Part shown: positions 2,831 through 30,742 of the stretch, one piece after another
Position numbering within the stretch: the first letter of the stretch is position 1
Layout: each line of letters starts with the position of its first letter
Source: Deltaproteobacteria bacterium
GTDB lineage: Bacteria; JAMCPX01
Direction of reading: 5' to 3'
Assembly: GCA_023381995.1 (NCBI GenBank)
Contig: JAMCVD010000079.1
Coordinates: 1 to 35,671 of the forward strand
DNA length: 35,671 nucleotides
The notes under the pieces: model-generated
What the model was told of the DNA's origin: nothing
What the model saw: the letters and a program-made list of their open reading frames with translations, nothing else
Databases searched by the model: none
Translations under genes and position numbers: made by a program

Positions 2831-5200
2831 TTACCTCGCCGCGTCTTTGCAGCACCTGAATCCTACCTCGATGTTTTCCGAGTTCGGGAGCATGTTATAC
2901 CTGTATGCACACCTCGTTGCCCAGTCGGGCTTTGCGAATGAGCCACCCTTTATGACCCGGTCCGCCCTGTCCTGCGCCGAGAACACGCTGTCGGTCCACT
3001 CCATGACATTGCCGCTCAAATCGTATACGCCATAACCGCTTACACACGCCCTGTAGCTGCCCGATGTGACTATGGACCTGTTTGTCCCATCCTTGTTTTG
3101 CGTATCGCATTTGGAAGCGTTCCACACGTTGCCATAGGGATATTTCAGGTTTGACGGTCCCTTACACGCCTTCTCCCATTCTTCCTCGGAGCATAGTCTC
3201 CTCCCTTCGTTTGCACAGATCTGCTCTGCCGTATTGAAGCTCACATCCGATTTCGGGACCATGCCTTCCCTGTCAGGATATTCGTACTTATCGATACAGA
3301 ACGACCTTACATATGTTCTTACATCGGCCTTCTCGGAGAAGTCCCTCAGCGGGTCCGTCATGCTGCTGCCCATGATAAAATATCCCGACGGTATATAGAT
3401 CATATCATCGGGGCACTTTGGGAGCGGTGGTGGCTTTGGTATTACCAGGGCGACCTTCCGCTCTCTTCTGGGGGGCTCGGTGCGTTTCCTTATCTTTTTC
3501 GGCGGCATGACCGGCGCTTCGACTCTGGGGGGGGGCTCGGGTGTCACGGGCTTTTGCTCCACCGGCTTTGGCTGGACGACCGGCGTGCCTGGGACAACCG
3601 GGGTGCCTGGTGCAATTTTATTTTCTTCCCGTCGTGCGGTTGTAGGGGAGACGTTTGCAACCTGTGTTTGTCGGCCGGCAGGCTTCAGCATGACCCATGC
3701 AAAGGCAACGGCACCTATTATAGCGATGGACAGGACAACAACAATCATGGCCATGGGCGATTTTTCCTTTGTTTTCGATTCTGGCGCAGGAGTCGCCGAT
3801 GGGTACGATACAACAGGGGGCTTTACGGGAGGGGGAGGGGGTTGTTCCGGGGGCACGGGCTTTTGTACCGCTTTGTCCTGTATTTCATTCGTGACGTTCT
3901 CAAGGTGTCTTGCGATTTCTTCGATGCCTTCGATCCTCTTATGCCCCTGCCTGCCCTGTCCCGCGTGTTCCGCCGGCTGTCCGATAACGGCGTCCTCGGG
4001 CTTCGATGCCTGGGCCTGCTGTCCTCCATTTATGGCCGGCACGGTCCTCTGTTCTGAAGGAACGGCACTCTTTATTCCTTCAGCCGGCTCCTTTTTTACC
4101 TTGTGAGCAGGGGGCGGCACAGGCGGCCCTGTTGCCGGTTGTTTTGATGTTTCACCCGTCTCTATGTACATGGCGAGCTCTTCGTCTATCTCTGTTTTGA
4201 GGATCCCGCTCTGTTCCATTCCCGCCGGGGCCTTCTGTGCCCATGCTTTCTCATCCAATGTTTTGGCCTTCTGACCGAATACCCGCAGCAGTTCTTGATA
4301 GAACTGGAACACGTACTGCGTTCTCCGATCGTGGTCTTGCTGGAGCGCCTTTAATAATATCTCGTTGACACCGTCCGGAAGCTCGTTGTTGTAGGTAGAC
4401 GGGGCGGGTGCAACGCTCCCCGGTACGATGCCTGTTAACATCTCGTACACGATAACGCCGAGAGAGTATATGTCGCTTGTTTTCGACAGTGCGCCGCCGA
4501 TGATAACTTCCGGGGCTATGTATTTATACGGGGTGCCGAGGTCCTGCTGTATGGATATGAAATCGAGGGGAGAGAGAGACGCCGTGATGCCGAGCTCCGC
4601 TATCTTGAGCCCGCCGGGCAGGATGAATATGTTCTCGGGCTTTAAATCGCCGTGCGTGATGCCGTTGTTGTGGACTTCTATGAGTGCCTTGCATATGTGT
4701 GTAAGTATCGATTCGAGCTCCTCGCCTTTAAAGAACTGTTTCATCTCCTTCCTCACGTCGAGCAGCTTCCTGAGGGTAAGGCCTTCTATGTATTCCGATA
4801 CGATGTAGACGACGCCGTCGTCTTCGCCAGAGTCATGTATGGCCACAATCTCCGGTATGTTCATCCCTACGATTGTCTTCACGGTGTCGAAAAAGCGTGC
4901 TTTTGCATTTTCCGATACGAAGAGGAAGGGCTTTATTTCCTTGAGGATGAAGACCTTTCTCTTCTCCCTGTCTCTCACCTTATAGGTATATCCTGTACCT
5001 TTCCTGTCGAGGATCTCCCTTATTTCGTACCGTGATCTTATCGTGTCGCCTATCTGATATTCTTTTATACCGGGTTGGGAAGGACGTGCATTTTCTTCGG
5101 TCTTCTTCTGTTTATCTGTCTTTGGAACAAGGGCCTGGCCGCAATGGGGACATACCGTTGTTCCTGATGGTACATCTTTAAGACATTTAAAACATCGCAC
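2831..5200 (-). CDS. Membrane Ser/Thr protein kinase-like protein with N-terminal zinc ribbon and C-terminal FGE-sulfatase (SUMF1) domain
   Basis: The protein has 789 residues with a GTG start, preceded by SD AAGGAG at 8 nt. Domains in order: a zinc ribbon (Cys 3, 6, 17, 20); a Hanks-type kinase domain (about 58-310); a long Pro-rich linker (about 350-480); one transmembrane helix (about 484-506); a second Pro-rich linker; and an FGE-sulfatase/SUMF1-like domain (about 596-785, ending in the typical GGSF...GFRC pattern). Kinase motifs seen are Lys87 in FILKEIK, HGDLKPEN at 183-190 and APE at 229-231. The DFG position reads ELG (202-204), so the metal-binding Asp is replaced by Glu and activity is uncertain. 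The topology puts the kinase in the cytoplasm and the FGE-like domain outside. FGE-like domains on bacterial kinases usually lack proven formylglycine activity, and none is claimed here. The GT-C-like gene lies 80 bp upstream in the same direction and may be cotranscribed. Confidence 0.9.
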   Translation of the reverse strand: MRCFKCLKDVPSGTTVCPHCGQALVPKTDKQKKTEENARPSQPGIKEYQIGDTIRSRYEIREILDRKGTGYTYKVRDREKRKVFILKEIKPFLFVSENAKARFFDTVKTIVGMNIPEIVAIHDSGEDDGVVYIVSEYIEGLTLRKLLDVRKEMKQFFKGEELESILTHICKALIEVHNNGITHGDLKPENIFILPGGLKIAELGITASLSPLDFISIQQDLGTPYKYIAPEVIIGGALSKTSDIYSLGVIVYEMLTGIVPGSVAPAPSTYNNELPDGVNEILLKALQQDHDRRTQYVFQFYQELLRVFGQKAKTLDEKAWAQKAPAGMEQSGILKTEIDEELAMYIETGETSKQPATGPPVPPPAHKVKKEPAEGIKSAVPSEQRTVPAINGGQQAQASKPEDAVIGQPAEHAGQGRQGHKRIEGIEEIARHLENVTNEIQDKAVQKPVPPEQPPPPPVKPPVVSYPSATPAPESKTKEKSPMAMIVVVLSIAIIGAVAFAWVMLKPAGRQTQVANVSPTTARREENKIAPGTPVVPGTPVVQPKPVEQKPVTPEPPPRVEAPVMPPKKIRKRTEPPRRERKVALVIPKPPPLPKCPDDMIYIPSGYFIMGSSMTDPLRDFSEKADVRTYVRSFCIDKYEYPDREGMVPKSDVSFNTAEQICANEGRRLCSEEEWEKACKGPSNLKYPYGNVWNASKCDTQNKDGTNRSIVTSGSYRACVSGYGVYDLSGNVMEWTDSVFSAQDRADRVIKGGSFAKPDWATRCAYRYNMLPNSENIEVGFRCCKDAAR

Positions 5201-10631: not shown

Positions 10632-10651
10632 CACTACTGTCCCAATGTTAA
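10632..10651 (+). repeat. Left terminal inverted repeat of the IS4-family element
   Basis: It reads CACTACTGTCCCAATGTTAA and matches 18 of 20 bases to the inverted sequence at 11937-11956. Confidence 0.85.
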
Positions 10652-11814
10652 GTAAATAAATTCAACTGGTTATGCATACCACATACTTGCTCTTCCCAAT
10701 CTATGTTTGTAAGTATCTGAGAGATCGGTATTTTCTCAAAAAGTGTTACACTCAAAATCTGTAGAATTGTATAAAGGCTGTGTTCCAGTTTCAGTTGTTT
10801 CTTTATAATAGCCACCAGCACATAAACTGAGATTGCAATCCATATTTGAGTTTTCACTGCATTGTCTGTAGTGCCGTAAAACGCCTTGATTCTCAGGTGT
10901 TGTTTTATCCATTTAAAGAACAATTCTATTTGCCAGCGACATTTATAAAGCTGAGCAATTGTCAACGCAGGTAATGTGAAATTGTTGCTTAAAAAGATTA
11001 TTCCTCTGTTATTTTCTGTATCAAAGAAACGAATCCTACGCAGATGCTGTGGATAATCTTTTCTTGCATAAAAACCTTTGACTACGATAATTTGATCGGA
11101 TTGCACGCCCGTGGTTTTGTCAACGCGCTGAGAATAAAGACGCTTAAAATTAAAATTGCTTTTCGTACGAGTTACAAAGAATGCCAAAGATTGGTTGACC
11201 CTGTAAAGGCGGGCGAAATCCAGGTAACCACGATCCATTATATAAATCGCACCGGCTTCCATAATAAGCTCATCAAGAATATTGACATCGTGAACTTTAC
11301 CATTTGTTATCTTGATAACAGTGGGTATATTCCCTCGTAAATCTAAAAGTGTATGCATCTTCACAGCGCCTTTCCCTTTACGGAATTTAGCCCACAGAAA
11401 CAATGAAAGGCAAAGATCGATAGTAGTAGCATCCAGTGCAAAAGTTGTTTGTTTGAGTTCCAATCCGAAGTCATCGTTGGAATACAAGGCTCGTGCGGTC
11501 TGGATAAGCACTTGAGCAAAGTCAGCATAGATTCGCCAGTCCCTTGTTTCATTAGCATGAGCCAGAGTATTGCGAGCAACTTTGCCTCGTATACCCATGT
11601 GATAAAGTTTGTGCTTTGTTACTCGCAGACATGTCTCAATATCTCGTAGGCTTTCTCGAAATGTTAGTTGGGCAAATGCCATGCAGAGATATTGATCCCA
11701 GCATGAAAAACTCTTTACTTTGTAATTGCCACCATACCGTTCTACACATTTGCGAAACTCATAACTTGGAATAAAATCCATAAGCTGAGAAAAAATGGTT
11801 GTTCCAGTATTCAT
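10648..11814 (-). CDS. IS4-family DDE transposase
   Basis: The transposase has 388 residues and is full length, with an N-terminal DUF4372-like region (FSQLMDFIPSYEFRKCVERY) followed by the RNase H-like catalytic core. The DDE residues are visible: Asp in FALDATTIDL, Asp in YIMDRGYLDF, and Glu in the IS4 signature Y-x2-R-x3-E-x6-K (YKCRWQIELFFKWIK). The start ATG at 11814 has SD AAAGGAG. It catalyses cut-and-paste movement of its own element. The reading frame is intact, so the copy may be active or recently acquired. Its AT-rich codon use differs from the surrounding genes. Confidence 0.95.
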   Translation of the reverse strand: MNTGTTIFSQLMDFIPSYEFRKCVERYGGNYKVKSFSCWDQYLCMAFAQLTFRESLRDIETCLRVTKHKLYHMGIRGKVARNTLAHANETRDWRIYADFAQVLIQTARALYSNDDFGLELKQTTFALDATTIDLCLSLFLWAKFRKGKGAVKMHTLLDLRGNIPTVIKITNGKVHDVNILDELIMEAGAIYIMDRGYLDFARLYRVNQSLAFFVTRTKSNFNFKRLYSQRVDKTTGVQSDQIIVVKGFYARKDYPQHLRRIRFFDTENNRGIIFLSNNFTLPALTIAQLYKCRWQIELFFKWIKQHLRIKAFYGTTDNAVKTQIWIAISVYVLVAIIKKQLKLEHSLYTILQILSVTLFEKIPISQILTNIDWEEQVCGMHNQLNLFT

Positions 11815-18397: not shown

Positions 18398-19756
18398 TCA
18401 CTTCATGTACCTGTTCAGGTCTATCAGGCCTTGCTGTGCGCTCCCCACGGTCGCCACGATGGTCCTTTTGTAGTGCCGTGTCGAGGTGTCTTTTTCTTCA
18501 AGCGATAGCTCCTCCATCTGTTCTATCGCGTTGCCCGACGCATCGAGTATGAGCTTTACGAATGGCCTCTGGGTGGCCGCATCGTTCGTTCTCGTAACAA
18601 CGCCTATCTCGTTTGTATCGAGCCTTACTACCGACCCGATAGGGTATATGCCGAGTGTTTTGGTGAATGCCTTTACGTACTCCATGTCGAAATCTTCGTT
18701 TACCCGGCTGTTCAGCAATTCCATGGATTCTTTCGGATCGAACCTCCTTTGATAGGGCCGTAGTGTCGTCATCGAGTCATAGGTGTCTGCTATTGCTATT
18801 ATCCTCGAGCCCTCCGGCTGGGAGGCTATGCCATCAGGACGTGGATACCCCGAAAGATTGTATCTGAGATGATGATAGAGGACGAAATGGGCCGTGATAT
18901 CGCTTATGCCGCCTATTTCCTTTATAATGTCCCTTCCGTGCACAGGGTGTTTCCGCATCTCATCCCATTCATATTCGCTTAATTCCGATGGCTTAAGTAT
19001 TATGTCTCGATTAATTCTTGTTTTTCCGATATCGTGCAGAATGCCGGACAGCCCTACAAACAGCAAGTCGTCTCCTTTAAAATCGAGCTCCTGTGCAAGC
19101 GATAAAGAGAGTATGCCGACGTTCACGGAATGGTTGAAGGTATATTCATCGTAATCCTGGAGCATCGTAAGACAGAGGAGGGTGTTTTTGTCTTTCAGCA
19201 TGGCCTCGTTTAAATCGTTGAGCATCTCTTGTATCTTTGTTTTCTCGGGTATATGGCCGAGCCTCAACTCGCTCATTATATTGACGATCTCGTTTCTCGC
19301 CGCCGTGTATGTTTTGAAGATCTCGACCTTTACGTCCTCCTCTATCTTCTTTATCTCTACCCCCCTGACCCCCATATTCTTGAGCCTCTCCGGCAGGCCT
19401 TTCTGTTTTTTCAACTCTTCCGGCTGGATTGTGAGGCTCTCCAACAGGATGAGTATCTCCTTTTCGTTTATCGTCCTGTAAAAGATAATCCCGTTGATCT
19501 CGAGGGCGATAAGTCTGTCTATGAACTCCTCCACGCCCTTGGTCGTCGTATAAAAAGGGGTCCTGTCCACGAGCAGGGTGTTCTTGACAACGGCGACGAC
19601 CAGCTCCCTGCGCGTGGCAAGCAGACTGTGGAGTATCTCGTTGACCCCATGGACCGCCGTCTTGATCGTGGGGTGTGTCTTTGGATAGAGCGACAGGTTT
19701 TTTACTGTCCCTGTAATCAGGGTCACAAGCGTGCCGAATTGTCCGTTATCAGACAT
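18398..19756 (-). CDS. HD-GYP domain protein, putative cyclic-di-GMP phosphodiesterase
   Basis: The protein has 452 residues. Residues about 5-125 form an unnamed N-terminal module beginning LITGTVKNLSLYPKTHP. The HD-GYP domain follows at about 200-370, with HSVNVG, the metal motif HDIGK, HPVHGRDI and HHLRYNLSGYP. The GYP triad is present, though the usual HHExxDGxGYP is altered (Leu for Glu, Leu before Ser-Gly). HD-GYP enzymes hydrolyse cyclic-di-GMP. A C-terminal stretch of about 80 residues (VVRLDTNEIGVVTRTN) resembles the tail often found on such proteins. It overlaps the HEAT-like gene by 8 bp. No membrane segment, so it is cytoplasmic. Confidence 0.88.
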   Translation of the reverse strand: MSDNGQFGTLVTLITGTVKNLSLYPKTHPTIKTAVHGVNEILHSLLATRRELVVAVVKNTLLVDRTPFYTTTKGVEEFIDRLIALEINGIIFYRTINEKEILILLESLTIQPEELKKQKGLPERLKNMGVRGVEIKKIEEDVKVEIFKTYTAARNEIVNIMSELRLGHIPEKTKIQEMLNDLNEAMLKDKNTLLCLTMLQDYDEYTFNHSVNVGILSLSLAQELDFKGDDLLFVGLSGILHDIGKTRINRDIILKPSELSEYEWDEMRKHPVHGRDIIKEIGGISDITAHFVLYHHLRYNLSGYPRPDGIASQPEGSRIIAIADTYDSMTTLRPYQRRFDPKESMELLNSRVNEDFDMEYVKAFTKTLGIYPIGSVVRLDTNEIGVVTRTNDAATQRPFVKLILDASGNAIEQMEELSLEEKDTSTRHYKRTIVATVGSAQQGLIDLNRYMK

Positions 19757-21278
19757 TTATTCTTTTCCCGATCTCGTAGAGTGCGTTCCAAGCTGTTTCC
19801 CGTATGCGTGCGTCCCTACTTTCCAACAGTTTTACAAGATTTGCAAGAGCAATCTCGTTCATTGACATGGCAAGGGCCTTTATCCCCGCAAGTTTTATAT
19901 CGGGATATTGTTTTGGCAGGAGCGCGCCGGGCCCGAAAATGGATGCGATGATCACATTTACAGCGTCCCTGCCTCCGATTTCGCCGAGTACAAGCAGGGC
20001 GTCATGCTTTATGGAGTAGGGGACAGCCTGATCGGACAGTATATGCCTGATCCCGGGTATAAAGACTGCCCGCCTGTATTTGCCTATCATGCTTATCGTC
20101 AGGCTTGTTAGCCTCTGTTCGGAGCTTCCGACGATGAGCTTGTCGATGATGCCGTTGCCTGTATTCGTATTCAGATCAAACAGTGCCTGCAGTGCCTTCT
20201 TCTTTACCCTGGTGTCGTTGTTCTTCAGGGCGTGTGCTATTGCGTGTTCCGGGGCTCCCTTGATGGCTGCCGCTGTATCGATGGCTACGGTTGCTGCCCT
20301 GTGGTTGCCGGAGAGCATGATCTTCTCAAGATGGTGATACGCGCCTTTCTCGAATGCCGACAATGCCCTCGCAATGAATTTCAAAGACTGTATTGTCTCT
20401 GTCCCGATCATCATGTCCGCAAGCTCCTTTGCGGCCGGCTCGCCGACTATCTTTACCATAGCGACGGACGCGTCGTAATAGTAAGGATTGCCCGTTGTTA
20501 TCGGTGTGATGATCTGCTGTATCATGCCTTTCTCCATCGAGATGAGCTCGACCTGTTTCCTTGCCACCTCTGTGATTGCCTGCACCCCGCCTTTCCGGTA
20601 GGCGTGCTGCGTGTATGTCCTTATCGCAATGAGCGGTATCTCGTATTTCTCTATGTCTGTGAGCCTTTGTATTATCGCGATGAGCGCATCGGACAGATCG
20701 GTATACCTGGACGGGTTGTTTTCCTTTTCAATAAGGCCGATGAGCCTTATCGCCTCCTGCTCGTCGTCCGAAAGGTCCTGTACGACATTTTCGAGCTCGA
20801 CGCTGTCCTCCGGCGTCTCCACCTGCTGTTCCGATTCCTTTTCAAGCTCCTCTCTGATGGTATCATAATCGACTTCTTCCACCTCTATGCTCGAGATGTT
20901 GCCGGTAAAGAGCACCTGCTTTATGCTCCTGTCCCTGGGCAGGATAAGGTCTCCTTTCGATACCGACTGCACGAATACGACCAGTTCCTGGAGCTTGATA
21001 GTATTATGGAGTATAAGGGTTTTTATCCGTTTATAGAACAGCAGCCTCGAGAGTTTATCGAACCCCTCGATCACAGTATTGTCTATGGATATGTTCCTTC
21101 TATCGACGGAATAGATAGCGGTGTTCAAGGCCCCGAACTGCTGCTTGATGACATTGTATATACGGGTCGATGCCACAGTAAGATAAGTATGCCCCTCCGG
21201 ATAAAAGGAGAACAGTCTTATGAGCTTCTCCACTTCCGACAATATGGTTGTTTCAGGTGTATTGTTTTTTGTATTCAT
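19749..21278 (-). CDS. HEAT-repeat-like protein with an N-terminal module shared with its HD-GYP neighbour
   Basis: The protein has 509 residues. The N-terminal about 110 residues (LIRLFSFYPEGHTYLTVAST...) follow the same pattern as the start of the downstream HD-GYP protein: a YPxxHP/T turn, a strand ending in I/LVD-type residues, then a helix and ELxxFxxSL. An acidic linker follows (about 130-165). From about 170 to the end is an all-helical array with repeats of ALQALFDL, HDALLVLGEIGG and IRETAWNALYEIGK type, as in HEAT/PBS-lyase solenoids, which serve as protein-binding scaffolds. Overlap with the HD-GYP gene indicates coupled expression. A scaffold or regulator of that enzyme is inference. 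Confidence 0.75.
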   Translation of the reverse strand: MNTKNNTPETTILSEVEKLIRLFSFYPEGHTYLTVASTRIYNVIKQQFGALNTAIYSVDRRNISIDNTVIEGFDKLSRLLFYKRIKTLILHNTIKLQELVVFVQSVSKGDLILPRDRSIKQVLFTGNISSIEVEEVDYDTIREELEKESEQQVETPEDSVELENVVQDLSDDEQEAIRLIGLIEKENNPSRYTDLSDALIAIIQRLTDIEKYEIPLIAIRTYTQHAYRKGGVQAITEVARKQVELISMEKGMIQQIITPITTGNPYYYDASVAMVKIVGEPAAKELADMMIGTETIQSLKFIARALSAFEKGAYHHLEKIMLSGNHRAATVAIDTAAAIKGAPEHAIAHALKNNDTRVKKKALQALFDLNTNTGNGIIDKLIVGSSEQRLTSLTISMIGKYRRAVFIPGIRHILSDQAVPYSIKHDALLVLGEIGGRDAVNVIIASIFGPGALLPKQYPDIKLAGIKALAMSMNEIALANLVKLLESRDARIRETAWNALYEIGKRINV

Positions 21279-24029: not shown

Positions 24030-26558
24030 ATGAAATTTAAGACGAAAATAACGATTGCCAATGTGATAATAACGCTCATAGCAGTCGCCGCCATATACTA
24101 TGTGACCGTCAAAACCATAAGCTTTACAATGGACGTGATAAAGTTTGTATCGATCGTCGCGGGCATCATTGTGGTAATAGCGCTCAGCATACAGTACCTT
24201 GCGAGCATAAGGCCGTTCTCGATCATAGAAGAGTTCTCTGCGAGGGTGCGCAACAACAAGACGGACGATAGATTTACTAGGCTCACCTTCTACACCGTCC
24301 TCTATTTCCCGCTCTACTTTATGGCCGTGTCGGCTGCGCAGTGGTATGTCGCGTCCATAGTCTTCTTTATCCTGCTCTATGGATTTGAGCACACGGGCCT
24401 GACGATCGCCCTGAGGACGGCCTTCGCGATCATAAGCGGTGCCACCATTGCGAATATTTTCCAGTATTTCGTGTACCAGAGATTGACGGAACCCCGGATG
24501 AGGGAGGTCCAGAGATACCTGAAGGGCACTGAGGTCTATGTAAAAAAGAGGATCGGTATCGTCGCAAAGATCTTCTTCAGCCTTTTTGTCCTGATGCTGC
24601 TGTTCCTGGTATTTATAAGGACCATCAGCAACAAGCTCATAGAGGACATCTTCAGATCGAACGGCGTCTCGTCTGCAAAGGTGGAGCTTGCCGCATACGC
24701 TCCGGCCATAAGCTCCATCCTTTCGCAGCGACTGCCTATGGAACAGACGGCCATAGCGTTGTCGAGGTTCAAACTGGGCAGCTCGGGCTACGTTCTCGTA
24801 ATGGACGATAGATATAAAGATGTCTTCCACGTATCGGACAATTACGAGAACGCCGTGCCTCTCGATGAGCTCGCCGCAAAAGACACATACAACGATTTCA
24901 AGAGTTACAGCACCCTGATCAAGGCGCCCCTGAGCGACGGCTTCTCCTTAGTCGGGGTCTATGCATGGTCCGACTATATGCCGTCCCTCTCTAAGTTTTC
25001 CGATTCCCAGAACTGGCTGCTCCTTACGATGGCCCTTATTCTCACGATCATCTCGTTGTTCATCGCAATCGATATATACCTTCCCGTAAAGGCCATCGGC
25101 TCTGTGGTGGAGAAATTGACCATGGGCAATTTCTCCACCACGAGCGGCCTGTTCGTCGAGGACGAGGCGGGGGTGGCCGCCAACGCACTCCGGAAGATGA
25201 TCGAGAACATCAAGTCCGTTATAAAGGTCATAAAGTCTTCAAGCGCCAATATCACAGGAATATCCGATAGGATGATGGATACCATCGATGGTACGCGGGA
25301 AAACATGCTCGTTCTTGACAGAGAGGTCAAAAACAATGCAGGGATCATCACCTCCGTACAAAGCACCTTGAGCCAGCTTGCGGAGTATATAGACGGCCTT
25401 CTGAACTCCATACATGATACGCTTGCGAGCAGCCATAAACTCGAGGAATCCATCGAGAGCGGCGGGAAGATACTCGCCGAAACCAAGGTATCGATAGATG
25501 CGCTCATGGATTCCGGCGATAATCTGCTGACGAAATTCGCCGCGATACAGCGGCACACGGCGGACAGCATGGGCGACATCTCTTTGGACGGCTATGGACA
25601 CCTGAGAAACGTGGATATGGACAATGAAGAGATCATCCGCAAGATAAGGACTACGATCGATTGGATGGCGGACAGCCTGAACAAGCTCGGCTCCGAGCTG
25701 CATGCGAATGTACAGTACAGAAAGCAGATGGGTAACATTTTATACAAGGTTTCGGCATTAGTCTCGACCCTCGACGAGCATGTCAACAAGATAGTCGTGG
25801 ACTTGAACAAGATCGACCTCGTCATCGACGATACGAATCTGCTTGCAATGAACTCATCCGTTATATCGGCCCAGGCCGGAGACTCGGGGAGGGGGTTCGA
25901 CGTCGTCTCGGAAGAGGTAACAAAGCTCGCGAGCGTGACGCAGGACAAGATTATAGAGGTACGCAGCCTGACCGGACTGCTCGTGAAAGAGAAAGATACT
26001 ATCATGAGCAACATGAAGGAGAAGCAGAAGTTCCTTGATGCCTTCGACGGGAAGCTGGGTCTCTTCGACAACGAGATAAGCGCCATCACCGGGAAAGTAG
26101 GCGATCTGAAGCTCGAATACGAGCAGATCGTGAAGGCCGTTAATGCCGTGTCTCTCGGGATCCATGGACTGCTGGGACACGCGGTATCGGGCAGAGACGT
26201 GCACAGGCTCATAAGCGCGGGGCTGATTCGTATAAACAAGGCCGCAGCCGATATAAACAAACATTCGAAGGCCTTCAGGGAGAGTCTGGAACAACTGAGC
26301 GGGGGATGGTCTGCTTACTCGGAAGGCCTGGGTCCTGTCTCCTCCGCACTGTCTGCCATAACCGAGCCTGCAACCATGATAAACGACCACATGAAGGCGA
26401 TAAAGGACAGGATAGGCGAGACGCAGGGACTGCTCGATCGCATCGCCGGGGCGTCCCAAAGGCTCAATGATCAGATCGGCGGCCTCGAGGTGAGGGAAGA
26501 GCTCGAAAAGCTCGTGGTTACCATTAACGAAGAGCCCAGGGAATACAGGATAATATGA
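24030..26558 (+). CDS. MCP-like membrane receptor A with divergent signalling tip
   Basis: The protein has 842 residues. Hydrophobic helices are seen at about 7-27, 35-57, 87-118 (one or two), 127-147, 180-198 and 329-349. The roughly 130-residue segment 199-328 would be extracytoplasmic. A HAMP-like stretch follows at 350-395, then a long helical cytoplasmic part. The hairpin region at about 600-635 reads TNLLAMNSSVISAQAGDSGR and GFDVVSEEVTKLA, recognisably the methyl-accepting chemotaxis protein tip, but the usual NAAIEAARAGE core is changed. The extra N-terminal helices are unlike standard two-helix MCPs. CheA/CheW coupling is therefore uncertain, and no che gene is nearby. The ATG overlaps the predicted transcription start. 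It is followed by its paralogue with a 4-bp overlap. Confidence 0.8.
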   Translation: MKFKTKITIANVIITLIAVAAIYYVTVKTISFTMDVIKFVSIVAGIIVVIALSIQYLASIRPFSIIEEFSARVRNNKTDDRFTRLTFYTVLYFPLYFMAVSAAQWYVASIVFFILLYGFEHTGLTIALRTAFAIISGATIANIFQYFVYQRLTEPRMREVQRYLKGTEVYVKKRIGIVAKIFFSLFVLMLLFLVFIRTISNKLIEDIFRSNGVSSAKVELAAYAPAISSILSQRLPMEQTAIALSRFKLGSSGYVLVMDDRYKDVFHVSDNYENAVPLDELAAKDTYNDFKSYSTLIKAPLSDGFSLVGVYAWSDYMPSLSKFSDSQNWLLLTMALILTIISLFIAIDIYLPVKAIGSVVEKLTMGNFSTTSGLFVEDEAGVAANALRKMIENIKSVIKVIKSSSANITGISDRMMDTIDGTRENMLVLDREVKNNAGIITSVQSTLSQLAEYIDGLLNSIHDTLASSHKLEESIESGGKILAETKVSIDALMDSGDNLLTKFAAIQRHTADSMGDISLDGYGHLRNVDMDNEEIIRKIRTTIDWMADSLNKLGSELHANVQYRKQMGNILYKVSALVSTLDEHVNKIVVDLNKIDLVIDDTNLLAMNSSVISAQAGDSGRGFDVVSEEVTKLASVTQDKIIEVRSLTGLLVKEKDTIMSNMKEKQKFLDAFDGKLGLFDNEISAITGKVGDLKLEYEQIVKAVNAVSLGIHGLLGHAVSGRDVHRLISAGLIRINKAAADINKHSKAFRESLEQLSGGWSAYSEGLGPVSSALSAITEPATMINDHMKAIKDRIGETQGLLDRIAGASQRLNDQIGGLEVREELEKLVVTINEEPREYRII

Positions 26559-29077
26559 AGCGGGCCAACATTTTCCTGACAGTTTTATACCTCGTCAACT
26601 CATTGATAGTGATGATGGTCTTCAGTACCGTACTCACGACGACGTACACGATAGAGATAGACGACTTTGTGCTCAATATCGTCCTCCTGGCGGCGGTCTC
26701 CATCGTCCTTTCGCTTGTTTTTTACCTGCTCAACCCCGTCCAGCTCGAGGGCATAAGGACCCTGCTGGACGAGAGGTATGACGACTCTTCCATGCGAAAG
26801 CTCGATCTGCTGGTCACCTATCCTCTGAGGGCGATACCCGTCTTTGCGACCGTATGGCTGGCCGGCATGGTCCTCTACCTGCTTGCAGGGGGGCTGACAC
26901 ATATAATCAAAGCACACGCGATGCCCCTCGGCTTCCTGTTTTCCGTTTTGTTCGTCATTGTGCTCGGCATCGTTTCGCAGACTTACTCCTTCAAGATTGC
27001 TACGAATGCATACATCTCGAGGGCCATAAAGAAGCTCAAAGTCATGGAACTAAAGAGCATCTATATACCCATCAAGTACAAGATCATAGGTATCTCGAGC
27101 ATGGTGATCGTGAGTGCCTACCTCGTCCTCGTGTACAGTGCCTATAACGGGGCCATGATATATGTGGGCCACGACGTCTATAGCAATACCCTCCGGACAG
27201 CCTCCGGCATCGCGTATACCATGGACAACAGCGCCGATCCGGAGAGCATACTGAAAGGTCTGTCCGGCAGGTTTGGTGGCAAATACAATTTCTATCTCTA
27301 CGACATGGTGGATAAGTCCGTAAAGAGCTATTCCGACGCACAGTTGAACGGCGACGTGGTAAGGCAGCTCGACAGGGAGGACGTCGTGTACGACAAACGG
27401 AACAATCAGGTGTTGTTCCTCGTGAACAGGCCCGTGACGATAAACGGCAAGAGCTATCGCCTTCTGGCGGGTATAAACAGGGACTTTTTTAATGCCCCCC
27501 TGCGTGGTTTCCTGTATAATCTGATCCTGTCCGGCATACTGATACTCATCGTCCTTATTATAACCGATATGCTCATATCGAATGACATATCCTCACACGA
27601 GAAGAGCCTGTCGGATTATTCCGTCATGCTCTCGAACAAAGAGCTTACGCACCTGCCGGAGATAGTCTCGACGGACGAGATCGGCGTGATTGTAAGCAAC
27701 ATAAGGATGCTCGTCATGAACTTCAGGGACTCCATGCTCAGGATCTCGAAAGACATAGACTCGATGAGCGGTGTCGCGACTTCGACTTCCAGCGGCATAT
27801 CCGGCATAAAGTCGGCCATCGCCGAGCAATCGAAGTATACCGATGAGCTGGTCGGTATCATTCGTTCGGTAAAGGGCGTGTCGGAGCAGATAATCAAGGG
27901 GAGTGCACCACTGAACGAGGCAACGGCAAACAATGGGCGGCTCGTCGTGCAGGCACTGCAAAAAAACAAGGAGCTGACGGTTTATCTGAACAGCGTGTCG
28001 TACCAGATAGCGCGGATATCAGCGCTCCTCACCGGCAATATAACTGTGTACGAAGATATACGGAACAATATCATCAAATTAAGCGATATCGTCGCCTCGA
28101 TCGGAACGGCATCGGGCGAAATAGACGCCGGCACGTCCGCTATGAATACGCTCCTGGCCCGGTTCTCGGAGTCCGTCAATACCATAAGAACATTGAATAC
28201 GCGGGCTGCGGAGTTCAAGAAGGACATCGAGGCGCTGCTGAGCGAGGTGATAAGCATAACGGACAATGTCCTCACCCTGCTTTCCGCATTCCTTTCGCAC
28301 ATCCAGCAGGCGAACGAGATGCTGGGGATTATCAACAATATAGCCGAGCGTACGAACCTCCTGTCCGTTAACGCCTTTATACTTGCTGCCTCCCATCAAA
28401 CGGAGGGTAAGAACTTCAAGGTGGTGGCGGAAGAGATCAAAAAGCTCGCGGACAGGGCCAGGACCGGCTCCAGGGACGTATCGAACTATATAACGAGGGT
28501 GAGGAGGAATGTGGACGAGATCCTCACAGGCATGAAAGACATGAACAGCTTTATACTACTCACGAGGCAGTCTTTTTCCTCTATCAACTCGATAGAGGCA
28601 AAGGTCGATGAGCTGGCTGCGTCCGCCATCGACCTGTACGGAGACAGGGCAGGCAGGGCCGTATCTCCCGTGGACAGGGAGACGCTCCACAATCATGGTG
28701 CGGCCGTTGGGGGGTCCGTCAGGGCACTCGTCGACGACATATCTTCGGCGGTCAGCTCGATGTCTGACATAAACAATGCGTTTACGGGGATAAAGTCCTC
28801 GCTCGAGAGGATGTCCGGGATCAACGAGGCGGACAATGCCTCCCTGACCGCTATAAACCATTCCGTCGAGGACATAAAGACCTTTACAGGCTATATAAAC
28901 GACAGCCTTGCCGTCGACGTCAGCAATCAGATACAACTGTCTCAGAATTCGGCGATGGAATTGAGCGGCCGAATCAAGGACAACGAACAGACCATCCATG
29001 GGCTGGAGGGCATCGTCGGGCAGCTCACGTCCGAGCTCGAATCCCTGAACAGGGCCATAAAATCGTTCATAGTATAA
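26555..29077 (+). CDS. MCP-like membrane receptor B, paralogue of receptor A
   Basis: The protein has 840 residues and the same layout as receptor A. Helices are at about 7-27, 38-58, 92-113, 123-143, 175-197 and 321-340, with an extracytoplasmic segment of about 120 residues (198-320), a HAMP-like linker and a long helical region. The tip at about 592-635 reads INNIAERTNLLSVNAFILAA then SHQTEGKNFKVVAEEIKKLA. The MCP frame is clear, but the conserved Glu and the AGExGRGF part are replaced by a different sequence. The two receptors have similar length and arrangement, and the ATGA overlap makes equal expression likely, so a heteromeric receptor is a reasonable inference. recO follows one base after the stop codon. 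Confidence 0.8.
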   Translation: MKRANIFLTVLYLVNSLIVMMVFSTVLTTTYTIEIDDFVLNIVLLAAVSIVLSLVFYLLNPVQLEGIRTLLDERYDDSSMRKLDLLVTYPLRAIPVFATVWLAGMVLYLLAGGLTHIIKAHAMPLGFLFSVLFVIVLGIVSQTYSFKIATNAYISRAIKKLKVMELKSIYIPIKYKIIGISSMVIVSAYLVLVYSAYNGAMIYVGHDVYSNTLRTASGIAYTMDNSADPESILKGLSGRFGGKYNFYLYDMVDKSVKSYSDAQLNGDVVRQLDREDVVYDKRNNQVLFLVNRPVTINGKSYRLLAGINRDFFNAPLRGFLYNLILSGILILIVLIITDMLISNDISSHEKSLSDYSVMLSNKELTHLPEIVSTDEIGVIVSNIRMLVMNFRDSMLRISKDIDSMSGVATSTSSGISGIKSAIAEQSKYTDELVGIIRSVKGVSEQIIKGSAPLNEATANNGRLVVQALQKNKELTVYLNSVSYQIARISALLTGNITVYEDIRNNIIKLSDIVASIGTASGEIDAGTSAMNTLLARFSESVNTIRTLNTRAAEFKKDIEALLSEVISITDNVLTLLSAFLSHIQQANEMLGIINNIAERTNLLSVNAFILAASHQTEGKNFKVVAEEIKKLADRARTGSRDVSNYITRVRRNVDEILTGMKDMNSFILLTRQSFSSINSIEAKVDELAASAIDLYGDRAGRAVSPVDRETLHNHGAAVGGSVRALVDDISSAVSSMSDINNAFTGIKSSLERMSGINEADNASLTAINHSVEDIKTFTGYINDSLAVDVSNQIQLSQNSAMELSGRIKDNEQTIHGLEGIVGQLTSELESLNRAIKSFIV

Positions 29078-29078
29078 G

Positions 29079-29822
29079 ATGGACATATTTACATCCGAGG
29101 GCATGGTCATAAACAGATTGAGGTATCTCGAATCGGACCTGATCGTTACCATCCTGTCGAAGGACCATGGCAAAATAAAGGCCATTGCAAAAGGCGGTGC
29201 CAGCAGCAGGAAGAGGTTCCCCGGTGCCTTCGAAACGGGCAATATCGGAGAGTTTGGCTTCGTAGAAAAGAGCCCGTACCAGCTTGCGCATCTGGCCCAC
29301 GCAAAGATAGACAACTATTTGATACGGCTGAAGAAAGACTACGAGAAGACCCTCATGCTCATCTATCTGTCGGGTCTGACGGACGTCATGACCCCTGAAC
29401 ATCAGTCCAGTCAAGTGCTGTTTTCCACACTGAGCGATGCCGTCCTGTTCCTCGAGGACAACAAGCGGCTTGACCAGGTGAGGCTGTTTTACGAGCTGCA
29501 GCTCCTGAGGATAAACGGTCTGCTCCATGTCGTCGGAAGCTGCGAATTATGCAAAGCGCCGTTTGGCGGCGGCCACGATGTCAACCTGATCGCCGGGACC
29601 GGGAGGTTCATCTGTGACTCGTGCATACCCGGGGAAGGCGAAGTCTGCCGCATACCTTTGTCTTTGTTGACAATCATAAAATCAACGGCTAAACATAATA
29701 CCTGTTTGGGCGACTTCTCGGAGATAGAAGTACCGTCGGCGCTCTTTGGCTTTACCAGAAGGATAATCAGCTCTTACATCGACAAGCCATTGAAATTGTG
29801 GGACATGATTGATAATTTATAA
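29079..29822 (+). CDS. recO: DNA repair protein RecO
   Basis: RecO loads RecA on gapped DNA together with RecR. The 247-residue protein has the N-terminal OB-fold (SEGMVINRLRYLESDLIVTI then AKGG), the helical middle and the zinc motif CELC...CDSC in the C-terminal domain. The length is normal. It starts one base after receptor B and is followed by the M50 protease gene after 5 bp, so it seems to be carried in that operon. Confidence 0.93.
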   Translation: MDIFTSEGMVINRLRYLESDLIVTILSKDHGKIKAIAKGGASSRKRFPGAFETGNIGEFGFVEKSPYQLAHLAHAKIDNYLIRLKKDYEKTLMLIYLSGLTDVMTPEHQSSQVLFSTLSDAVLFLEDNKRLDQVRLFYELQLLRINGLLHVVGSCELCKAPFGGGHDVNLIAGTGRFICDSCIPGEGEVCRIPLSLLTIIKSTAKHNTCLGDFSEIEVPSALFGFTRRIISSYIDKPLKLWDMIDNL

Positions 29823-29827
29823 TCCCG

Positions 29828-30742
29828 ATGAATAAAGATTATTTGGACAATACACAGATAGATCTCGAGAGGCTCCATGACGATTTCTATGGGTGGAAGC
29901 CGCCCGTGCAGCAGAAGATCAAGATAGCCACGCCAGTCATCCTGTTTATCGTAACGTTCGTGGCGGTGGTCTTTGCGGGCGCACTGCAATACGGCGTAAA
30001 CCCCTTTACCCATCTTGGAGAGGCGTACCGGGGGCTGCCGTTCGCGCTTATCCTGATGGGCATATTGCTGTCTCACGAGATGGGGCATTTCCTCATGTCG
30101 AAGCACCACGACGTCGTTGCCACTCTCCCTTACTTCATACCGGCCCCGAACATCCTCGGCACTTTCGGCGCGTTCATACGCATGAAATCGCCGATACCGG
30201 ACCGCAATGCGCTCGTCGACATCGGCGCGGCAGGCCCTCTGGCAGGGTTCCTGATCGCACTGCCCGCCCTGATCATAGGCGTGAGAATGTCGCCGCTACG
30301 TCCCGTCGCCTCGACAGGTGGCCTCAGTCTTGGGAATTCCCTGCTTGTCAGTCTTGTATCTCTGTTGGTCAGGCCGAGCATCCCGGCCGGCCATGAGCTT
30401 GTATTGGGCCCCATTGCGTTCGCAGGGTGGATAGGCATGTTCGTTACCGCGATGAACCTCATACCGATAGGGCAGCTTGACGGCGGCCATATCGCGTATG
30501 CGCTGTTCGGCAGGTGGTACAACGCCATTGCACGGCTGGCGCTCATCGTGCTCGTCGTAATGGGCATATGGGGGTGGGGCGTATGGCTGTTCTGGGCGTT
30601 GATCATATTGATCCTCGGTATCAGACACCCGAGCCCCATAGACCCGTATCAGCCCCTGGACGTGAAGAGGAAGTACATTGCGTGGTTCGCCATGATTATC
30701 TTGATAATAACCTTCATCCCTGTGCCGTTCTCCGGGATCTGA
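29828..30742 (+). CDS. Site-2 protease family (M50) intramembrane metalloprotease
   Basis: The 304-residue polytopic protein has the zinc motif HEMGH (83-87) in a membrane helix and the second motif NLIPIGQLDGG (from Asn210, with Asp218-Gly219), as in S2P/EGY-type proteases. Conserved YFIPAPN and FGAFIRMKSPIPDR segments resemble the plant EGY-like bacterial subgroup. There is no PDZ domain, which separates it from RseP. It cleaves membrane-embedded substrates; candidates cannot be named, although an ECF sigma factor lies elsewhere in the window. It is cotranscribed with recO. Confidence 0.93.
   Translation: MNKDYLDNTQIDLERLHDDFYGWKPPVQQKIKIATPVILFIVTFVAVVFAGALQYGVNPFTHLGEAYRGLPFALILMGILLSHEMGHFLMSKHHDVVATLPYFIPAPNILGTFGAFIRMKSPIPDRNALVDIGAAGPLAGFLIALPALIIGVRMSPLRPVASTGGLSLGNSLLVSLVSLLVRPSIPAGHELVLGPIAFAGWIGMFVTAMNLIPIGQLDGGHIAYALFGRWYNAIARLALIVLVVMGIWGWGVWLFWALIILILGIRHPSPIDPYQPLDVKRKYIAWFAMIILIITFIPVPFSGI

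Follow-up and report, generated by a model that had tools for sequence, protein, structure and literature searches.

In M. xanthus, 13 of the 21 chemoreceptors are orphans, and the che3 operon encodes two adjacent receptors of duplication origin, Mcp3A and Mcp3B, with six predicted transmembrane (TM) helices each (PMC3945109). In Geobacter, the receptor EsnA is encoded elsewhere than the CheW and CheA proteins of GSU2222-2220 but interacts with them in two-hybrid tests (PMC5585712). Orphan receptors are thus common, and they can dock on a che cluster that is encoded far away. Receptor hairpins range from 12 to 32 paired heptads; class 64H is the longest common class (PMC6628036) and is represented in Desulfuromonas (PMC8235581). 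Receptors of mismatched length tend to segregate and are thought not to mix (PMC3945109, PMC6628036). In E. coli-type receptors, E385 and R388 form an ionic lock between dimers (PMC8144572). Finally, 64H MCPs with the tip NAAIIAxQxGE occur in CheA-AAA-CheW clusters; comparable systems are esnBC of Geobacter (GSU2220-2222) with its orphan receptor EsnA and the beta-group che clusters of delta-proteobacteria.

The pair of receptor genes that we describe here, A and B, shares features with several of these systems. Like Mcp3A and Mcp3B, A and B are adjacent and have six TM helices each; unlike them, by the published description, Mcp3A and Mcp3B are 595 and 605 amino acids long, have a HAMP domain that is recognized by Pfam, belong to class 40H, and lie in a che operon (PMC3945109). 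EsnA resembles A and B in its orphan gene location and differs in its class (40H) and in its GAF sensor (PMC5585712). The NAAIIAxQxGE-tip 64H MCPs have an MCPsignal domain and arm lengths as in A and B and carry E385I and R388Q as A does. In contrast to these MCPs, A and B each contain six TM helices but neither methylation motifs nor the class glycines, and the turn of B is rebuilt.

A and B lie on the forward (+) strand of a contig of 35,671 nucleotides (C48) from a draft genome of Deltaproteobacteria (2.1 Mb, 84% complete); this whole contig is the window that we analyzed. Gene A (24030..26558, +) encodes an MCP-like receptor of 842 amino acids and gene B (26555..29077, +) one of 840. Both reading frames are intact, and they share 4 bp as ATGA (26555..26558, +), which contains the stop codon of A and the start codon of B and points to translational coupling. 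Both proteins match MCPsignal (Pfam PF00015, cut-off 34.6 bits), A with 69.8 bits at residues 571-712 and B with 56.6 bits at residues 551-681. They are homologous to each other by BLASTP (E = 4e-12, 23% identity across 467 amino acids) and by profile-profile comparison (E = 3e-16 over 673 columns, which is most of both lengths); their N-terminal halves compared alone gave a marginal match (E = 0.01). The gene for recO (29079..29822, +) begins 1 bp 3' of B and is probably in the same operon (TIGR00613, 107 bits against a cut-off of 48.7), and it is followed by a gene for a site-2 type membrane protease of family M50 (29828..30742, +; Peptidase_M50, 74 bits). A scan of the window's proteins against Pfam and NCBIfam found no other che family, and the Pfam scan found no output domain on A or B. 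The original prediction, which was made from the sequence alone, had described two similar proteins that overlap by 4 bp, with no che genes nearby and with recO and an M50 protease downstream, and all of this held up.

It had also given each protein six helices or more. By hydropathy there are six in each and no more, with four before the TM-sensor-TM unit. In both proteins, these four helices come first; TM5 and TM6 then flank a PAS/Cache-like domain, and a HAMP-like segment leads into a long coiled-coil hairpin. In A, the TM helices span residues 7-25, 36-54, 98-116, 123-141, 177-195 and 329-347. The four extra ones (24048..24452, +) also appear as helices in the AlphaFold2 (AF2) model, with low to moderate confidence. 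The region from TM5 through TM6 (24558..25070, +) was delimited by hydropathy and AF2, and its extracytoplasmic part (about residues 196-328) has a pLDDT of about 75-84, consists of helix and sheet in the model, and has no match in Pfam; we infer a PAS/Cache-like fold for it. Between TM6 and the coiled coil of A, the HAMP-like segment (25071..25229, +) matches Pfam HAMP with E = 0.012, which is below the cut-off, and has a DExG motif at residue 378; the corresponding part of B has no Pfam HAMP match but has the DExG motif as well. In B, the TM helices span residues 6-24, 38-56, 85-103, 122-140, 177-195 and 323-341 (extra four at 26570..26974, +, by hydropathy). Its PAS/Cache-like domain (about residues 196-322), together with TM5 and TM6 (27083..27577, +), was recognized from hydropathy, from strands in the AF2 model, and from a Foldseek match to the PAS domain of a sensor kinase (3cwf; probability 1.00 over 92 columns, but E = 0.028). 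Confidence in the full-length AF2 models of the two proteins is low (pLDDT 62 and 57), and we used them for the order of helices and the outline of domains only.

Among solved or integrative models of MCPs, the best structural and sequence matches of A and B are McpB-McpC and YvaQ-McpB of B. subtilis (PDB 9a69, 9a65) and the Thermotoga hairpin 2ch7. Unlike A and B, these are ordinary receptors, each with two TM helices and a canonical tip. Loci L162, L149, L161, L169, L170 and L171 also encode large MCPs, for which five or six TM helices are predicted and whose tips are of the AAIIA or ASIIA type; they span several unrelated families, and their N-terminal halves have no Pfam name.

The hairpin tip of A (residues 600-633; 25827..25928, +) reads DDTNLLAMNSSVISAQAG..GRGFDVVSEE, and DDTNLLAMNSSVISAQAG is invariant across the 8 orthologues of A. 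From the orthologue alignment and a table in Tsr numbering, A has the changes E385I, R388Q, A382S, A383S and A386S and retains N376, N381, G390, G393, F396, V398 and E402. Because I385, Q388 and G390 are each present in 8/8 orthologues, A fits the NAAIIAxQ-tip class; S382, S383, M380, D397, T404 and V409 are also fixed in 8/8 and are specific to the family. The tip of B (residues 598-631; 28346..28447, +) is rebuilt, and the pattern ERTNLLS(V/I)NAFILA.S.QT......F.VVAE is kept in 7 orthologues. Its changes are A383F, E385L, R388S, A389P/H, G390Q, E391T and, in most orthologues, G395N. As A383F, E385L, R388S, G390Q and E391T are present in all 7, B falls outside the NAAIIAxQ-tip class.

Both E385I and R388Q are found in the receptor of the lineage's che cluster, M1 (NAAIIASQSGEYGKSF), and in a second receptor of the lineage, M2 (NAAIIANQAGEHGKGF); the residues of the ionic lock are thus missing from A, B, M1 and M2. 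A degenerate DNA pattern for the E385I/R388Q tip matched 33 of 386 genomes, while the reversed pattern, as a control, matched none, and in several other families the receptors with such tips lie in clusters of the type CheA-CheW-MCP-zinc-ribbon response regulator (RR)-HEAT-CheR-CheB. The central changes in A's tip are thus part of a widespread class, and those of B are not. The original prediction had quoted both tip sequences exactly and had called both tips altered. Both do differ from E. coli, but the central changes of A are common to M1, and only B departs radically.

Among orthologues of A, and likewise of B, identity is 0.85-0.90 in the tip and just 0.12-0.40 in much of the arms, whereas in M1 and M2 the identity of the arms is about 0.7-0.99. 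The tips of A and B are under strong purifying selection, and this contrast between tip and arms implies that the tip is in use. In B, the residues 389P/H, 390Q and 391T, without the turn glycine, may block contact with CheW or CheA.

If the N-terminal arm of the hairpin is counted from the DExG motif up to the tip, and the C-terminal arm from there to the end of the protein, the two arms have 239 and 225 residues in A, 241 and 225 in B, 241 and 225 in M1, and 241 and 226 in M2. By residue count, this is consistent with 32 heptads per arm, and thus with class 64H, in A, B and M1; a C-terminal arm of 225 residues is also found in several six-TM receptors elsewhere. With arms of equal length, A could pair with B, and both could enter the arrays of M1. 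We also searched for a relaxed methylation motif, [AGST]xx[EQ][EQ]xx[AGST]. It was absent from 15/15 sequences of A and B, while 38/39 comparators had at least one; these, like the glycine counts below, are counts over related sequences and not independent events. M1 has 5-6 motifs against 1.6 expected. In the arms of A and B merely 0.2-0.3 matches are expected by chance, so the absence is partly compositional and reflects a lack of enrichment rather than active removal. Methylation motifs are a common feature of receptors, though not a strictly defining one. The class glycine at +70 from Tsr T375 is present in 0/15 sequences of A and B and in 36/39 others, and the one at -49 is present in 0/8 of A, 4/7 of B, and 38/39 others.

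A is present in 8 of the 9 genomes of the family, and B adjoins A in all 8 of these, although B is split over contigs in two genomes and cut by the end of a contig in one. A conserved pair, for which the original prediction had proposed a search as a check, is therefore what we found. The ATGA overlap is exact in 8/8 genomes, down to about 42% (A) and 33% (B) identity, and the start codons of the orthologues of A and of B align. The overlap is thus not due to chance. Furthermore, at each of the 7 loci whose contig extends beyond B, recO lies 1-11 bp 3' of B and is followed by the M50 gene, and the M50 gene is the last conserved member of this A-B-recO-M50 block. In the ninth genome (G005), A, B and the M50 gene are all missing; because the M50 gene is missing along with the receptors, the locus is probably unassembled in this fragmented assembly rather than lost. 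We considered a link between the pair and the dnaK and hsp20 genes upstream in the window, and rejected it because these genes are not conserved upstream in the relatives.

Beyond the nine-member family, the next nearest genomes sampled are related at the level of domain only, and the phylum of one of the sampled genomes (G064) is a single genome. A profile of the N-terminal half of A found no convincing orthologue in the 377 genomes from other families among the 386 that we searched; a match at L018/L046 is a sensor kinase-like protein and not an MCP. A peptide-pattern scan of GTDB contigs, which is sensitive to close relatives only, found no orthologue outside the lineage; the records from within it are metagenome-assembled genomes. 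In a tree of the receptors, which carries long-branch warnings, A is placed apart from M1 and M2, and its branch is very long, at 3.6 changes per column. We discarded a grouping of B with L162_835 (support 95/92) because of such a warning.

The lineage has a single common chemosensory pathway. In the genome of the window, contig C104 carries the genes for CheA, two CheW proteins and M1, together with those for an AAA ATPase, a HEAT protein and a response regulator with a zinc ribbon, and CheR is encoded elsewhere; the ATPase was assigned by homology to sister genomes, which are also the source of the order with CheR and CheB. The sister genomes have the complete cluster, CheA-AAA-CheW-CheW-MCP-RR-HEAT-CheR-CheB, in which the order CheA-ATPase-CheW recalls Geobacter GSU2222-2220. 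(At L034, L150 and L151, too, an AAA ATPase gene sits between CheA and CheW, as in GSU2220-2222.) Proteins with a CheW domain are found in 8/9 genomes of the family and CheR in 9/9. The flagellar export family FHIPEP was found in 0/9, although the positive controls worked; it is therefore unlikely that this pathway drives flagella. By searches with PF00015 and CheW, the receptors throughout the lineage are just A, B, M1 and M2, plus an extra cluster in one genome (G008). This extra receptor (L047, contig C195) has the canonical tip NAAIEAARAGE, with matches to a CheW domain and to CheR on the same contig; G008 is the only one of the nine genomes in which it was seen, and it is either a recent acquisition or contamination.

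A look-alike of the pair lies within a che cluster of another lineage. Locus L159 of genome G296 encodes CheA-CheW-CheW, then a pair of six-TM receptors (847 and 872 amino acids) whose genes overlap by ATGA, and then an M1-like receptor. The 847-residue protein has a degenerate tip and matches the N-terminal half of A (E = 8e-5, hhalign probability 61%), while the 872-residue protein does not match the N-terminal half of A and has no profile match to B. This pair is like A and B in its tandem six-TM receptors, its ATGA overlap and its one degenerate tip, but unlike them it is inside a che cluster and keeps some methylation-like motifs. This suggests that A and B may descend from the receptors of an L159-like che cluster. 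(At this locus, positions 8524-18000 of contig C31, the TN of the tip motif of the first coupled receptor is replaced: DADTLALNAEIISEQVGARGGGF.)

The reading that we favor, with roughly even confidence, is that A and B are an orphan, co-translated and probably heteromeric 64H pair, without methylation adaptation, that is docked on a non-flagellar chemosensory pathway; we infer the heteromer, the docking on CheW, the lack of adaptation, and the signal. A and B would be made from one mRNA and would probably assemble together, and the retention of the pair with its translational coupling in 8/8 genomes makes a heteromer plausible. They would then serve as orphan inputs to the lineage's common pathway: a stimulus sensed by the TM and PAS-like part would reach the tips by way of the coiled coil, and the tip of A, at least, would dock on CheW and CheA. 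The tip of B, with its rebuilt turn, would be the partner, placed at the trimer axis or serving as a modulator. As recognizable methylation motifs and the class glycines are gone, the pair is not expected to be adapted by CheR and CheB, and it may report an absolute level rather than a change. On this reading, A and B look like a specialized receptor in two parts that serves the cell's non-flagellar chemosensory pathway, and not like a wholly new system. Against a pair docked on this pathway, A and B are outside the che cluster with recO and M50 as stable neighbors, the turn glycine of B is gone, and A lies on its long branch away from M1 and M2.

An alternative is that the conserved tips bind a different partner, so that A and B would form a heteromeric sensor that works without CheA and perhaps acts on the product of a neighboring gene, for instance the M50 protease. 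The original prediction had argued for a different output from the changed tips and the absence of nearby che genes; that argument is not supported, as the genome has CheA and CheW and as M1 shares E385I, R388Q and the hairpin length with A. Its observations are confirmed and its interpretation is in part upheld. A CheA-independent output is possible, mainly on account of the tip of B, which is rebuilt and invariant for its novel sequence. The changes in A that are specific to the family and fixed in 8/8, the stable linkage to recO and M50 without che genes, and the loss of adaptation features also fit such a sensor. But E385I and R388Q are shared with the receptor of the lineage's own CheA/CheW cluster, the hairpins are as long as those of che receptors, and the look-alike pair of another lineage is inside a che cluster. 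Moreover, neither mark of CheA independence, a genome without CheA and CheW or an output domain on the receptor itself, is found for A and B. Overall, we consider a CheA-independent sensor rather unlikely.

A somewhat less probable alternative is that A and B form separate homodimers that share an mRNA for dosage, with no specific complex between them. Duplicated tandem receptors are known, as in Mcp3A and Mcp3B with their six predicted TM helices each (PMC3945109), and A and B are far apart in sequence and in evolutionary rate. However, sharing for dosage has to contend with the strict 1:1 retention with a 4-bp overlap in 8/8 genomes, with equal arm lengths, and with the absence of the same hinge and methylation features from both proteins. 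It is very improbable that A and B are once-ordinary receptors decaying toward pseudogenes: the arms are poorly conserved and the glycine and methylation features are gone, but wherever contigs are complete both frames are intact, with proteins that are 33-77% identical, and identity in the tips stays at about 90% despite the drifting arms.

Returning to the docked pair, a more specific version, which we think quite unlikely, is that A and B would form an obligate heterodimer that has dropped methylation adaptation, with A as the outer subunit that faces CheW and CheA and B at the trimer axis. In ordinary dimers both of these places are filled by two identical subunits; ordinary mutation cannot dissect the trimer-facing from the kinase-facing role, and single-chain receptors were engineered to do so (PMC4692393). 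If the specific version is true, A and B would be a natural pair of equal length with two distinct conserved tips, which would allow the roles of the subunits to be separated directly. They would also be receptors without methylation or hinge features that nevertheless have a strongly selected tip, in a lineage whose pathway is probably non-flagellar.

Several other genes were noted in the window, all on the reverse (-) strand. At 18398-21278, an HD_5 protein overlaps a 509-residue HEAT-repeat protein by 8 bp, and the two might be a signalling pair. At 2831-5200, a Ser/Thr protein kinase domain is joined to a domain like sulfatase-modifying factor (FGE), and at 10648-11814 there is a transposase with DUF4372 and DDE_Tnp_1 domains.
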